Shown here: positions 20,296 to 24,974 of the stretch, one piece after another
Layout of the letters: every line of letters begins with the position of its first letter
Position numbering within the stretch: position 1 is the stretch's first letter
Assembly: GCA_005791255.1 (NCBI GenBank)
Contig: SXXK01000220.1
Location: forward strand, 1-34,639
Reading direction: 5' to 3'
Length of the DNA: 34,639 nt
Source of the DNA: Planctomyces sp.
GTDB taxonomy: Bacteria > Planctomycetota > Planctomycetia > Planctomycetales > Planctomycetaceae
The notes under the pieces: generated by a model
Database searches by the model: none
Told to the model about the DNA's origin: nothing
The model's input: only the letters and a program-made list of their open reading frames with translations
Translations under genes and position numbers: made by a program

Positions 20296-21099
20296 TCAGG
20301 CGTCAGCAGGTGTGCTGCGGTACTGATGCAGGAAAATGCCGGCAGAGACGGCGACATTCAGTGAATCCGTTCCGTTGAACATCGGGATGGTCAGTCGTGA
20401 ATCGGAGACCCTGCGGACAGCTTCCGAGATACCGTCGTATTCGTTTCCGAATACGAGTGTTGTTCGTGCAGCAAAGTGATGCTGGTGCAGCGGTCGGGCT
20501 GTTGCGTCCAGTACGGTCAGGCAGATGTCCATCGCGTACTGCTGCTGCAGTTTTGCCAGCAGCCCGGCAAGATCGCCAGTTTCCACAATCGGCAGGAACA
20601 GTCCGTTACCCATCGAAACTCGCAGCACGCGGCGCGAGAATGGGTCAGCAGAACCCTCGCCCAGCACAATTCCGGCAGCGCCGAAGGCCGCCCCGATCCG
20701 GATCAGGGCGCCTACGTTTTCCGGATCGGTCACCCGGTCACCGGCGACCAGCAGCGCCGGACCCGCCGCCGGCAGCCACGTTTCCAGCGGCTGCGGCGGA
20801 CGCCGTTCAGCGCAGGCCATCACACCGCAGTGGAAGGCAAATCCCACCAGTTCCTCCGCCTGCACCTGCGTCAGACGGTAAACCGGAACATCTGCCGGCA
20901 GTCGCGGTTCAAAAGCCGCGAACTTGCGGTCGCTGATCACCACGCTGCGGACACGAAAGTCACTGCGCAGCACGCGTTCGACCACCGTTGGGCCTTCTGC
21001 GATAAACAGCTGCGCATCTCGCGTGGCGTTGGTGGATTTCAGGCTGCGATAAACATCCAGTCGCGGATCCGCCAGTGATTCCATGCGTTCGGACAGCAT
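20296..21099 (-). CDS. SpoU/TrmH-family RNA 2'-O-methyltransferase
   Basis: The protein has an N-terminal RNA-binding substrate domain (LFIAEGPTVVERVLRSD) and a C-terminal SPOUT knot domain with the three family motifs: GDRVTDPENVGALIRIGAAFGA, LVFGNEYDGIS and LTIPMFNGTDSLNVAVSAGIFLHQ. It should methylate ribose in rRNA or tRNA with S-adenosylmethionine; the target nucleotide cannot be told. I place the start at ATG 21099 (267 residues), which shares its A with the TGA stop of the upstream RbsD-like gene (TGATG). A longer frame starting at 21147 would overlap that gene by 49 bases. The one-base overlap suggests translational coupling. Confidence 0.92.
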   Translation of the reverse strand: MLSERMESLADPRLDVYRSLKSTNATRDAQLFIAEGPTVVERVLRSDFRVRSVVISDRKFAAFEPRLPADVPVYRLTQVQAEELVGFAFHCGVMACAERRPPQPLETWLPAAGPALLVAGDRVTDPENVGALIRIGAAFGAAGIVLGEGSADPFSRRVLRVSMGNGLFLPIVETGDLAGLLAKLQQQYAMDICLTVLDATARPLHQHHFAARTTLVFGNEYDGISEAVRRVSDSRLTIPMFNGTDSLNVAVSAGIFLHQYRSTPADA

Positions 21100-21551
21100 C
21101 ACTGACCTGACTGTCGCACGCCGACTGTGAGCAGCAGATTGGCCCACAGGGCCTGATCACCAGTCTGGATCGTCAGCACGTGATCACGCGAATCCACAGC
21201 ATCATAAAAGTCCCAGCGGGAAATTGGCTGCAGTGGAATTGACAGTCCGGCCTCCGTCAGGATCGATCGATACTGGTTCCAGACCGGGGGATCATGCGGC
21301 AGACGGTACGGGTCATCGTCAGGCATACCCATCGTGCTGACTGCTTCGACGGGAATCGCTGTCAGCAGCACCTGCAGCACCTGAGCGACCGTGACGAGGC
21401 CCGGAGCGAGGTTCAGGCTGACCAGCTCGGCTCGCGGTCCAATCGCCGATGATGCCGGATAATTGCCATCGGCAATCAGAATCTTTGCACTGTGTCCGGC
21501 GCGGGCCAGCACTTCAGAAATACGCGGGTGAATCAGTTGTGATTTCAGCAT
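21099..21551 (-). CDS. RbsD/FucU-family sugar mutarotase-like protein
   Basis: The 150-residue protein matches the RbsD/FucU family, which interconverts the anomers of ribose or fucose. Characteristic text includes LIHPRISEVLARAGHSAKILIADGNYPAS (residues 6-34), with the conserved catalytic His20 and Asp28. Further matches are LVSLNLAPGLVTVAQVLQVLL, MGMPDDDP and the C-terminal TGDQALWANLLLTVGV. Sequence style is nearer FucU than RbsD. No sugar transporter, kinase or regulator is adjacent; instead the gene overlaps a SpoU methyltransferase gene by one base. Which sugar it handles is therefore unknown. It lies 48 bases after the DUF6513 gene on the same strand. Confidence 0.92.
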   Translation of the reverse strand: MLKSQLIHPRISEVLARAGHSAKILIADGNYPASSAIGPRAELVSLNLAPGLVTVAQVLQVLLTAIPVEAVSTMGMPDDDPYRLPHDPPVWNQYRSILTEAGLSIPLQPISRWDFYDAVDSRDHVLTIQTGDQALWANLLLTVGVRQSGQ

Positions 21552-21599: not shown

Positions 21600-23012
21600 T
21601 CAGGTGCCCGGATCGGACTGATGGTTGTGTACTGCGGAGGATGCCCCCCACTGACCAGCAACTCCGAAGTTCATCGGAGCATCCTGAACATACTGTTTTC
21701 CCAGCAGCAATGCGACCTCAGCCCGGGCAAGTTCGTAGCCAAGATAAAATGCGTGCTCTGCTGAGACGGAATTCTGAGAACGCTGCCGACGCGCCGCCAG
21801 CAGTGCCTGTTCAAAAACCTGAAAACCGCTGCTGCCACTCCAGCAACCCTCCGAATTCATCAGATGCACCTGTCCCTGCTCGGCGAAGATGCGGTAATTC
21901 GGGTCCGTCAGAGATTGCGCCAACTGGTCCAGCGCCGCCTGTGACGTCCTGCGCAGCCGTCCGTCCCGCAGCATGGTCAGCGAGCCATCAAGATTTTTCG
22001 GAATGGTTCCGGCACTCAGTGCATAATGCACCAGTCGCCGCGCCGCGGCCAGCTCCGACACTGCTGTCCGACACCAGTTGATCACCTGAGTCGTCAGCAC
22101 ACTCTGAATCCCCAGTTCCTCGCAGATCGCCGCCAGCAGCATGTTGACGCCCGCCGAATCCACCTCCGTCAGCTCGGACACATTTCCCACACCCATCATC
22201 ATCGCTGTTTCAGGGTGCCTGCGACGCGTCCGCATGTAGCGTTCAAGCGACGCAGCGAAACCCATTCCGATCGGTTCCAGAATCGGGTCCAGCCGAAATC
22301 GACACCCGCGGTCCGTGAGCTGTTCGGCCAGCCGGTCCAGCGAATCTGCATCCTGGGGAGTTTCCGGAACGGCCACTACTTCCACTCCCAGTCTGCTGAC
22401 CCACTCGAGGTTGGACTGATTGCAGCTGAGTATCAGTTCGGCACCCGCCGCCACTGCCGCTTCCACCTCGGTCTGCTCGAAGCTGTCGATGGACACGCGA
22501 TGTCCGGCATTTCGCAGCTCGCGCACAATTTCACCCATATGCCGGCACACCTGTCCGGGGACAGCGCCCACGTCAATCAGATCCGCCCCGGCGGCTCGCA
22601 GCTCGGCCGCCTGCTGCAGGATCTGATCCAGTGAAAGCAGCGGGGCATGATTCAGCTCCGCCAGAATTTCGATGGACCAGCGGCTCAGGTCTGCCGCCTT
22701 CCGGCGTCCGACACCAAAATACTCGGGCAGGTCGTGCAGATCCTTCGGACCGCGTGCAAACGGTCGACCAAAATGCGATTCCAGTTCCGACAGGTCTCCC
22801 TGACACCAGCCGGGGACAATCACCTGATCAATGTGGTCCGGTACGGTCAGTCTGCGTTTCAGCAGCCCGGTATGCAGCAGTGCGGCGACCTGGATCCCCG
22901 GAACTGTGATTTCGAAATGGAATCCCGCCAGCGGAGCGATCGACTGCAGAACATCCCGCAGGCTGCCCTCAGCCAGACGTCCGGTAACGAACAGCAGAGT
23001 TTTTTCGGTCAC
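21600..23012 (-). CDS. DUF6513-type dihydropteroate synthase-like protein
   Basis: The 470-residue protein has an N-terminal alpha/beta domain (LLFVTGRLAEGSLRDVL; GWCQGDLSELESHFG) and a central TIM-barrel like dihydropteroate synthase (about residues 130-330). Barrel landmarks are AELRAAGADLIDVGAVPG, VSIDSFEQTEVEAAVAAGAELILS, FRLDPILEPIGMGF, MMGVGNVSELTEVDSAG and NMLLAAICEELGIQSVLTTQ. A C-terminal region follows (RLVHYALSAGTIPKNLDGSL). From memory, such proteins occur in archaea, methylotrophs and planctomycetes with tetrahydromethanopterin-linked C1 genes; a role in making that cofactor is inference. Start is a GTG behind AAGGCAG. The upstream SDR gene ends 23 bases away, so the pair is probably an operon. 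Confidence 0.88.
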   Translation of the reverse strand: MTEKTLLFVTGRLAEGSLRDVLQSIAPLAGFHFEITVPGIQVAALLHTGLLKRRLTVPDHIDQVIVPGWCQGDLSELESHFGRPFARGPKDLHDLPEYFGVGRRKAADLSRWSIEILAELNHAPLLSLDQILQQAAELRAAGADLIDVGAVPGQVCRHMGEIVRELRNAGHRVSIDSFEQTEVEAAVAAGAELILSCNQSNLEWVSRLGVEVVAVPETPQDADSLDRLAEQLTDRGCRFRLDPILEPIGMGFAASLERYMRTRRRHPETAMMMGVGNVSELTEVDSAGVNMLLAAICEELGIQSVLTTQVINWCRTAVSELAAARRLVHYALSAGTIPKNLDGSLTMLRDGRLRRTSQAALDQLAQSLTDPNYRIFAEQGQVHLMNSEGCWSGSSGFQVFEQALLAARRQRSQNSVSAEHAFYLGYELARAEVALLLGKQYVQDAPMNFGVAGQWGASSAVHNHQSDPGT

Positions 23013-23035: not shown

Positions 23036-23794
23036 TCAGCGAACAGCGCCGCCGTTGACGTTGAGCACCTGTCCGGTAATCCAGCCAGCTTCGTCGCTGA
23101 GCAGAAAGCGGGCCATGCAGGCGATGTCCCGTGGTTCACCCCACCGCTGCAGTGGCGTTTCTCGCAGCACCCGCTGCTGCCAGTACTCGCTGGCCGTTTC
23201 GCCCCACGCCGTACGAATCCAGCCTGGGGCAATGCAGTTGACACGCACAGAAGGTGCGAGGCTGACAGCGAGCGAACGCGAGAATCCCATGACTGCGTTC
23301 TTCACTGCCGCAAACAGCTCACCACTGTCACCCTCCATGCCGCGGTCCGACTGATCCCAGCCGATCGTCAGAATCACGCCATGTCCCGCTTCCTGCATGC
23401 GACGTCCCAGCGCTCGTGACAGTTCCACGGTCCCTTCCACATCGGTACGCAGCAGGGCCGACAGCTTTTCCGAGAAGGATGCCTGGCGAAGTTCTGTTGT
23501 CAGAGTATCAGCACCGGCACAGTTCACCAGTGCGTCCGGGGCCCCGGACTGGCAGGCCTGCTCGATCAGTCGACTGCGATCCTGCGGGCAGCCGACATCA
23601 GCGACGAGGATGTCCGCCCGGACTCCCATCCGGGTGATCTCCGCGGCTGCCTCGTGGGCGAGCTGTACGGATCGTCGACAGTTCAGAATCACATGGGCGC
23701 CGGCGCGGGCACACTCCATCGCAATCTCCCGGCCAATTCCCGAAGATGCCCCTGTAATCAGAATTCGACGTCCGCTGAGTGATGCAAATGACAT
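23036..23794 (-). CDS. Short-chain dehydrogenase/reductase with altered active site
   Basis: The 252-residue protein is a classical-length SDR. It shows a TGASSGIGREIA cofactor loop (residues 15-26), LVADVG, LVNCAGAD (the NAG motif), an AVKNAVMGFSRSLAVSLAPSVRVNCIAPGWIRT segment and the C-terminal WITGQVLNVNGGAVR. The catalytic YxxxK is FAAVK: the Tyr codon is TTT (Phe) on the coding strand near 23320. The usual Ser-containing strand reads ILTIGWDQSD rather than ISS, so normal oxidoreductase chemistry is doubtful, while NAD(P) binding seems intact. Located directly upstream of the DUF6513 gene, it may work with it, perhaps in pterin metabolism. No clear ribosome site precedes the ATG. Confidence 0.92.
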   Translation of the reverse strand: MSFASLSGRRILITGASSGIGREIAMECARAGAHVILNCRRSVQLAHEAAAEITRMGVRADILVADVGCPQDRSRLIEQACQSGAPDALVNCAGADTLTTELRQASFSEKLSALLRTDVEGTVELSRALGRRMQEAGHGVILTIGWDQSDRGMEGDSGELFAAVKNAVMGFSRSLAVSLAPSVRVNCIAPGWIRTAWGETASEYWQQRVLRETPLQRWGEPRDIACMARFLLSDEAGWITGQVLNVNGGAVR

Positions 23795-23942
23795 TTTGAA
23801 AAGCTATTCTGCGAGTTTGACGCGGCACAGCAATGCTGCTGCGGAACTTCCAAACTGCTTTATACACCAATTCCCGCCGCATCGGAAAACGCTTTCGGAC
23901 TTTCCGAGTGGTTTCACCCGCCGATTTTCAGGAGCCTCGCCT

Positions 23943-24974
23943 GTGAGATCCCGTCTGCTGCTGGTCGTCCTTCTGGCCCTCATCTGTCAAACGTCGGTAT
24001 CCCTCAGGGCGGATGAAAAAGTTCAGCAGTTTCGCGTGGGGATGATTGGTCTGGACACCTCACACTGCCTCGCATTCACTGAACTGCTCAACAAAGCCGG
24101 GGATGATCCGCTGCTCGGTGGCTGTAAAGTTGTACTGGTATATCCCAAGGGAAGTCCCGACATCGAAAGCAGCGTGAAGCGAGTTCCCGAGTACACTCAG
24201 AAGATTCGAGCACTTGGCGTGGAGGTGGTTGAGGACCTGGCCAGTATGATTTCTCAGGTGGATGTGGTCCTGCTTGAGACCAATGACGGACGTCCCCACC
24301 TTGAGCAGGTGATCCCCGTGCTGAAGGCTCGCAAGCCGGTCTTCATTGACAAGCCGGTGGCCGGTTCACTGGTGGATGCCATTGCCATTTATCGACTTGC
24401 TGAGCATTATCAGACTCCCGTGTTCAGTTCGTCATCGCTGCGTTTCGCTGCTGCCGCTCAGGCTGTACGCAGCGGCGCAATCGGCGAAGTGCTGGGCTGC
24501 GACGCTTACTCTCCCTGCAGCCTTGAAGCCACACATCCGGATCTGTTCTGGTACGGGATTCACGGCTGCGAGACGCTGTTTACAGCCATGGGGCCGGGAG
24601 TGGAGTCGGTTGTGCGAACATCCACGAAGGATTTCGATGTGGTCACCGGTGTCTGGAAGGGCGGACGGATCGGCACATTTCGTGGCATACGTGCCGGCAG
24701 TGCCGGCTATGGCGGGACAGCATTCGGTACCAAAGGCTCGGCTCAGATGGGGCCCTATGACGGCTACAAACCTCTGGTGGTCGAGATTGTGAAGTTCTGG
24801 CGCACGGGGACACCGCCGGTGTCCGCTGAGGAAACTCTTGATCTGTATGCCTTCATGGAGTCGGCCGATGAGAGTCGCCGGCGTGGATTTGTGCCGGTGC
24901 AGGTCGCCGATGTGCGTAAGCAGGCCGCCGCTGCCGCTGATCAGAAGGTTCGCTCCATCCTTGCCTCGGAATAA
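23943..24974 (+). CDS. Exported Gfo/Idh/MocA-family oxidoreductase
   Basis: The 343-residue protein starts with a signal peptide (RLLLVVLLALICQTSVSLRAD). A Rossmann fold follows with a relaxed loop, VGMIGLDTSHC, in place of GxGxxG. LLETNDGRPHLEQVIPVLKARKPVFIDKPVA carries the DKP motif that stands for the usual EKP lysine-proline pair. The C-terminal beta-sheet domain covers SLEATHPDLFWYGIHGCETLF to the end. The GIHGCE stretch holds the His that takes part in proton transfer in relatives. Planctomycetes have many such exported or Tat-dependent members, presumably acting on sugars or sugar acids; the substrate is unknown. Start is a GTG at 23943, AGGAG about 9 bases before it. It is divergent from the SDR gene and meets tilS tail to tail with only three bases between stops. 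Confidence 0.92.
   Translation: MRSRLLLVVLLALICQTSVSLRADEKVQQFRVGMIGLDTSHCLAFTELLNKAGDDPLLGGCKVVLVYPKGSPDIESSVKRVPEYTQKIRALGVEVVEDLASMISQVDVVLLETNDGRPHLEQVIPVLKARKPVFIDKPVAGSLVDAIAIYRLAEHYQTPVFSSSSLRFAAAAQAVRSGAIGEVLGCDAYSPCSLEATHPDLFWYGIHGCETLFTAMGPGVESVVRTSTKDFDVVTGVWKGGRIGTFRGIRAGSAGYGGTAFGTKGSAQMGPYDGYKPLVVEIVKFWRTGTPPVSAEETLDLYAFMESADESRRRGFVPVQVADVRKQAAAAADQKVRSILASE

Follow-up and report, generated by a model that had tools for sequence, protein, structure and literature searches.

A Tyr-less short-chain dehydrogenase family that accompanies tetrahydromethanopterin genes in planctomycetes, a candidate pterin reductase

Pterin reductases with a short-chain dehydrogenase (SDR) fold are represented by PTR1 and FolM. 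Excerpts on the mechanism of PTR1 assign its Lys to positioning the nicotinamide, an Asp to drawing a proton from solvent and the Tyr to passing the proton to the substrate in the first reduction, and name water as the proton source of the second (PMC8996148). According to the same excerpts, mutating residues of this triad, Tyr included, costs significant activity, which disfavours an easy loss of the Tyr. E. coli FolM, in the text excerpted from PMC1971073, reduces dihydrobiopterin and not oxidised biopterin, and TGX3RXG is given there as the FolM/PTR1 fingerprint. Taken together, the water-derived proton of the second PTR1 step and the substrate range of FolM suggest that an SDR performing only the dihydro-to-tetrahydro reduction might dispense with the Tyr.

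The reaction proposed below for a planctomycete SDR is shared by DmrA of Methylobacterium and by AfpA/DmrB of archaea and beta-proteobacteria, which, as far as the excerpted sources describe them, belong to protein families other than the SDRs. DmrA is described in these excerpts as a non-homologous substitute for Afp in Methylobacterium (PMC5020050) and as sharing 26–34% identity with two M. extorquens dihydrofolate reductases (PMC6193120), and the excerpt of Chistoserdova 2016 (PMC5020050) reports that the Afp gene was not recognised in planctomycete genomes. No title or abstract opening describing the SDR gene was found among the papers listed on planctomycetes, dihydromethanopterin reductase, tetrahydromethanopterin (H4MPT) biosynthesis, dihydropteroate synthase and short-chain dehydrogenase, and no mention of DUF6513, the family of the neighbouring gene, was found in the literature.

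Active-site residues of the SDR and their conservation

The SDR gene lies at 23036–23794 (minus strand) of the window, by which we mean the whole 34,639-nucleotide stretch of Planctomyces sp. DNA analysed here. A preliminary description had singled it out for FAAVK in place of YxxxK and a Ser strand with TIGWDQSD, and both motifs are present in an intact ORF of 252 aa that runs from ATG to stop and matches adh_short_C2 (Pfam PF13561; 148.8 bits against a cut-off of 27). The cofactor loop and NAG motif, which had been judged functional in appearance, also appear intact by alignment: the NAD(P) glycine loop reads TGASSGIG (residues 14–21; 23732–23755, minus strand), the NAG motif is NCAG in the window's protein (NNAG is commoner among orthologs), and G15, G19, G21, A93 and G94 are invariant in 48 aligned family sequences, which have 37 invariant columns altogether. 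Around the active site, Phe161-Ala-Ala-Val-Lys165 (23300–23314, minus strand) replaces YxxxK, and the Ser strand ILTIGWDQSD contains Trp146-Asp147-Gln148 (23351–23359, minus strand), with Trp146 aligned to the canonical Ser in the alignment with paralogs. Asp118 (codon 23441–23443, minus strand) occupies the position of the canonical catalytic Asn, so that the fourth tetrad residue is replaced as well, which the preliminary description had missed. By alignment, the classical N-S-Y-K tetrad has thus been changed to Asp118, Trp146 and Phe161, and only the Lys remains; of the hallmarks of a classical SDR, the catalytic Ser and Asn are absent from the family and YxxxK from all but one ortholog.

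Sequence search of a class panel of 99 genomes (the organism's own and relatives of the same class) detected a clear ortholog in 92, the own genome's included and two of them as incomplete matches (L108 and L122); the boundary lies at an E-value step from 8e-40 (the last ortholog, partial) to 3e-33 (the next SDR). All 92 orthologs have F161, K165, D96, D118, W146, D147, W192, W197, W205, R208 and W218, and 90 keep Q148. Eleven more orthologs from a sample of 199 evenly drawn Planctomycetota genomes retain the same residues (Asp118 and Lys165 in 11/11, Phe161 in 10/11), the sole deviation being a Tyr for Phe in one genome (G227, locus L230), which keeps WDQ and Asp118. Across the orthologs of this and other planctomycetes, Phe161 stands in 102 and the Trp-Asp of the Ser strand in all of 103. 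An ortholog with a normal YxxxK, the observation that the preliminary description had named as contrary to its reading, occurs once, in G227, against Phe in all the others, and is consistent with a position where Phe and Tyr are both allowed. The best 80 of 485 loci from a contig search have Phe without exception; these overlap the 92-genome panel and are excluded from the ortholog counts, and no title among them names an organism that we recognised as non-Planctomycetota, two saying just 'bacterium'.

SDR paralogs of the same genome were aligned at the Phe161 column, and 0/19 have Phe and 17/19 have Tyr (the set comprised 21, of which L260 and L271 were not recovered by phmmer). The absence of Phe from these paralogs and its invariance across the 92 class orthologs argue that the variant is not due to chance. 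A pseudogene or a sequencing error was rejected on the ortholog counts given above and on the lack of internal stops in the listed matches. The variant active site is real and nearly invariant, as the preliminary description had supposed. After β2, His38 (68/92 orthologs), Arg40 (66/92) and Ser42 (57/92) resemble the His-Arg-Ser that grips the 2'-phosphate in PTR1, which suggests NADPH as the cofactor; the window's own protein has Asn38.

Kinship to known SDR and pterin reductase families

The AlphaFold model of the SDR (mean pLDDT 94.8) has a FabG-like fold, which together with the PF13561 match places the protein in the broad SDR superfamily. FabG (2uvd) is closest to the model in overall sequence and fold (35% identity, Z 34.4, rmsd 2.1 over 242 residues). 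Foldseek and VIA-align returned FabG-like chains, and FolM/PTR1 were not among the 50 matches listed, which excludes nothing. Among the best 25 of 225 NCBIfam matches of the window's SDR, none reached its cut-off, the best being glucose 1-dehydrogenase PRK07231 (167 bits against 215). The top-scoring profiles, FabG and glucose dehydrogenase, all stay under their cut-offs, and an automatic annotation would therefore leave the role of this SDR hidden. Compared with such classical SDRs, the family has its tetrad reduced to the Lys and is further set apart by WDQ, a longer loop before Phe161 and an invariant Trp-rich C-terminal part. A role in defence was rejected, as no PADLOC match was obtained.

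With FolM/PTR1, including Brucella FolM (5tgd/5bt9), the family shares the SDR fold, an acidic side chain at the Ser position or next to it and the proximity of pterin genes, and a short LAPxVRVN loop is common to it and the FolM proteins of E. coli and Brucella. Unlike FolM/PTR1, however, it has a TGX3GXG loop in place of TGX3RXG (Gly at the Arg position in 91/92 orthologs, a gap in one), and it has Phe for Tyr and Asp for Asn, the Tyr of the Asp-Tyr-Lys triad being absent from 102 of 103 orthologs. Membership of FolM/PTR1 was rejected on the absent fingerprint. Trp146 aligns with both the Ser position and the FolM Asp, which leaves Asp147 one residue later, and another alignment shifts the stretch by a residue. 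In a maximum-likelihood tree of a small sample with weak deep support, which omitted six divergent paralogs of the own genome and a duplicate of the query, the family did not join the FolM clade, to which a separate SDR of the own genome (L280) belongs. TmpR, an SDR dihydrofolate reductase (NF012208), ranks fifth among the NCBIfam matches of the G227 ortholog (147 bits against a cut-off of 325) and is not among the best 25 of 225 NCBIfam matches of the window's SDR. Regarding the described dihydromethanopterin reductases, the five Pfam families matched by the SDR include neither a flavoprotein family, as expected of AfpA/DmrB, nor PF00186 (dihydrofolate reductase), as expected of DmrA. We class the family with none of FolM, PTR1, DmrA and AfpA.

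Co-occurrence with H4MPT genes and gene neighbourhood

Methenyl-H4MPT cyclohydrolase (MCH) was used as the marker of H4MPT-linked C1 transfer. The SDR profile splits the phylum sample into 17 genomes at E ≤ 2e-101 and the rest at 4e-54 or weaker, and the SDR was found in 17/18 MCH-positive and 0/181 MCH-negative genomes (Fisher p 1e-23, not corrected for shared ancestry and descriptive only, because related genomes are not independent). The sole exception among the 18 is G277, in which MCH and DUF6513 are present and no SDR ortholog was found. MCH occurs in 89/99 and Mtd (PF09176) in 92/99 genomes of the class panel, and when a match to either was taken as H4MPT-positive, the SDR was present in 91/95 positive genomes and in 1/4 negative ones, this one being 61% complete (G017). 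The fit tightened with completeness, to 82/83 positive and 0/3 negative genomes at ≥90% and to 69/69 and 0/2 at ≥95%; the H4MPT-positive genomes without the SDR are G012, G015 and G016, all under 90% complete, and G034 (91%). With MCH as the sole marker the fit loosens, since no MCH match was obtained in seven SDR genomes (G001, G006, G013, G017, G031, G047 and G053), of which G001, G006 and G047 are 97–100% complete and all except G017 have Mtd. These observations make it highly probable that the SDR belongs to the H4MPT pathway. They likewise support the suggestion in the preliminary description of a specialised reductase, or a non-reductive function, in the metabolism of pterins or C1 cofactors, of which the catalysis and the substrate are putative.

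In the window, the SDR is followed on the same strand by a DUF6513/TIGR00284-like, dihydropteroate-synthase-like gene (21600–23012, minus strand), which, as listed, begins 23 bp past the SDR stop and is a probable operon partner, in agreement with the operon assumed earlier. This ORF matches DUF6513 (71.2 bits, cut-off 23.9), Pterin_bind and DUF4346 in Pfam, and TIGR00284 in NCBIfam at 186.5 bits, under the cut-off of 256.65. Downstream of it on the same strand lie an RbsD/FucU-like ORF (21099–21551, minus strand) and a SpoU methylase ORF (20296–21147, minus strand), which overlap each other by 49 bp as listed. A Gfo/Idh-type ORF (23397–24974, plus strand) overlaps the SDR gene on the opposite strand as listed; its Pfam match begins at residue 213, so its true start is probably downstream.

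In the class panel, 89 genomes have both the SDR and DUF6513, three the SDR alone, two DUF6513 alone and five neither. Of the 89 genomes with both, 37, from five families, have the two genes on one strand and no more than 500 bp apart; in another 20 the genes are on one contig and more widely separated (~510 bp to several megabases, some in one-contig genomes), and in the remaining 32 they are on different contigs. The linkage supposed in the preliminary description is thus conserved and not universal, and presence and absence with H4MPT genes is the stronger evidence. One genome (G069; L124, L286) encodes a DUF6513 protein and gave no match for MCH, Mtd or this SDR family.

Outside the class, an operon of G160 has the order MCH, RimK-like ATP-grasp, CitG-like, PTPS, SDR, DUF6513 and PabB-like. 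The operons of G212 and G227 have the same order plus a pterin-4a-carbinolamine dehydratase (PCD) between SDR and DUF6513, as does G242 by sequence comparison. The comparison covered 99 loci, of which 98 contain the SDR. PCD is a direct neighbour of the SDR in at least 14 of the 98, and PabB comes after DUF6513 in at least 18; both counts are minima, as the flanks of 30 loci extend no farther than 1.5 kb. The remaining 84 SDR loci, the G160 operon included, yielded no PCD. In the H4MPT cluster of G277, which is without the SDR, PCD adjoins DUF6513. Within the class, an HPPK–SDR fusion occurs in 12/92 orthologs (all 11 panel genomes of one family, f3, and G095), with HPPK as the N-terminal and the SDR as the C-terminal half, and it is the sole HPPK found in those 12 genomes.

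Some further features of these clusters were noted. PCD recurs in the H4MPT module beside DUF6513 or the SDR in L249, L250, L252 and L253 and in 11 class loci. A CitG-like triphosphoribosyl transferase and a RimK-like ATP-grasp protein accompany MCH in the five H4MPT clusters examined (L249–L253), CitG being fused to PTPS in L249. The last of these, L253 from G277, represents a planctomycete with MCH, FTR and DUF6513 and no SDR ortholog.

Proposed role and alternative readings

A Tyr-less SDR kept nearly unchanged in planctomycetes with H4MPT genes is a good candidate for a reductase step of this pathway. We propose, with our confidence evenly balanced, that it reduces a pterin with NADPH in planctomycete H4MPT synthesis and is most likely the dihydromethanopterin reductase of the final step from H2MPT to H4MPT, where it would substitute for the archaeal-type flavoprotein AfpA/DmrB and for Methylobacterium DmrA. 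The AfpA model TIGR02699 gave no match over its cut-off in the class panel (0/99) or the phylum sample (0/199); weak partial matches below cut-off occur in 112/199 genomes, the best at 33.9 bits against 192. DmrA was searched for solely through the DHFR_1 model, which matched 18/99 panel genomes. About its activity as an enzyme, its substrate, the placing of residues in the pocket, the preferred cofactor and the mechanism, we infer the following. NADPH would sit in the intact glycine loop, its nicotinamide ribose gripped by Lys165, and the dihydropterin would stack on the nicotinamide in a pocket with the invariant Trp residues and the acids Asp96, Asp118 and Asp147. The hydride would go to C6 and the N5 proton would come from water, a proposal under which the carbonyl-activating Ser and the proton-donating Tyr would both be dispensable and could both be lost. 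The working mode would resemble the Tyr-independent second reduction of PTR1.

Conservation, gene context, the HPPK fusion, co-occurrence with H4MPT genes and the lack of an AfpA match over cut-off support a pterin reductase. Against the proposed role stand the activity that PTR1 loses on mutation of its triad, the missing FolM/PTR1 fingerprint, the apparent placement outside the FolM clade and the alignment of Asp147 off the Ser position, and the genome survey adds that G277 and four H4MPT-positive class genomes are without the SDR, that three SDR genomes have no DUF6513 match, that the two genes are megabases apart in some one-contig genomes and that AfpA has the weak partial matches given above. 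Co-occurrence and operon structure give the pathway and not the choice between a late dihydropterin reduction and another step.

H4MPT synthesis includes a ribofuranose ring-opening step, to which, to our knowledge, no enzyme has been assigned. The classical Tyr is also dispensable in phenylcoumaran benzylic ether and pinoresinol reductases, which transfer hydride onto a quinone-methide-like intermediate. By analogy, the SDR might act on the DUF6513 product and reductively open its ribofuranose ring, giving the ribitol chain found in H4MPT, with the hydride going onto a quinone-methide-like aryl intermediate. We regard this as unlikely, and as a shade less likely in the fuller version, in which the Tyr-less, Ser-less SDR opens the ring through such an intermediate and the HPPK fusion and DUF6513 operon serve to pass the intermediate along. 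The SDR adjoins the coupling-type DUF6513 enzyme in the 37 genomes counted above, chemistry of this kind should need neither Ser nor Tyr, and a 2011 review, as excerpted, estimated seven unknown methanopterin proteins in two methanogens (PMC3087415). Ring opening should, however, be common to all H4MPT makers, yet no ortholog was found in MCH-bearing G277; the lineage-variable step described in the excerpt of PMC5020050 is that of Afp/DmrA, and the HPPK fusion and the proximity of PTPS and PCD point to the pterin ring.

PCD, directly beside the SDR in some loci including the operons of G212, G227 and G242, would be its partner if the SDR were a quinonoid dihydropterin reductase that repairs oxidised H4MPT. 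We consider this more doubtful than ring opening: most SDR loci, the G160 operon among them, yielded no PCD, the same gene lies beside DUF6513 in SDR-less G277, and the biosynthetic reductase would remain missing.

The same low probability is given to a pterin-general rather than H4MPT-specific enzyme, that is, a dihydrofolate or early-pterin reductase of the FolM or sepiapterin reductase kind. It would accord with the fusion to the only HPPK found in 12 genomes, with the 81/99 panel genomes without a DHFR_1 match and with the TmpR match of the G227 ortholog, although that match is below cut-off. However, the SDR follows MCH and Mtd and does not track DHFR (17/18 DHFR-positive and 75/81 DHFR-negative panel genomes have it), and the loss of Ser and Tyr would speak against an early-pterin role, as C=O reduction would normally need both. 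Moreover, the own genome has a separate FolM-type SDR (L280:1489–2277; G000:C395) with TGX3RXG, an Asp at the Ser position and YxxxR for YxxxK, whose best NCBIfam matches, PRK09134 and the pteridine reductase PRK09135, are below cut-off; as the own genome has no DHFR_1 match, this SDR may be its dihydrofolate reductase. FolM-type SDRs were also found in four DHFR-less relatives (G035, G038, G045 and G055), and none was found in the regions around DUF6513 and HPPK of G069 and G093. Folate reduction may thus be handled elsewhere than by the Tyr-less SDR, whose identity as a plain DHFR replacement was rejected on the missing correlation with DHFR and the separate FolM-type SDR. In G038, G045 and G035 (L282, L283 and L284), the FolM-type SDR lies close to an additional HPPK, probably as a folM–folK pair.

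The replacement of three of the four catalytic residues would also suit a protein of SDR fold that has no catalytic function and partners DUF6513 or HPPK as a scaffold or pterin channel; this is very improbable, because the invariant columns include Lys165, residues of the glycine loop and a number of acidic and Trp residues and a conserved cofactor loop would be needless in such a protein. Least credible is a methylene-H4MPT dehydrogenase working beside MCH by pure hydride transfer without acid or base, which the H4MPT linkage, the operons with MCH, a chemistry that should require no proton donor and three SDR genomes without an Mtd match (G017, G019 and G082, 99% complete) would allow, and which was rejected because the classical Mtd already fills this slot in nearly all panel genomes.

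Planctomycetes carry the H4MPT-dependent C1 pathway, and in the excerpted text of PMC5020050 the usual dihydromethanopterin reductase gene is unrecognised in them; the SDR family offers one concrete, nearly invariant candidate for it. If the proposed role is true, the family would illustrate how the proton-donor Tyr of an SDR can be lost when the enzyme turns from C=O to C=N reduction.
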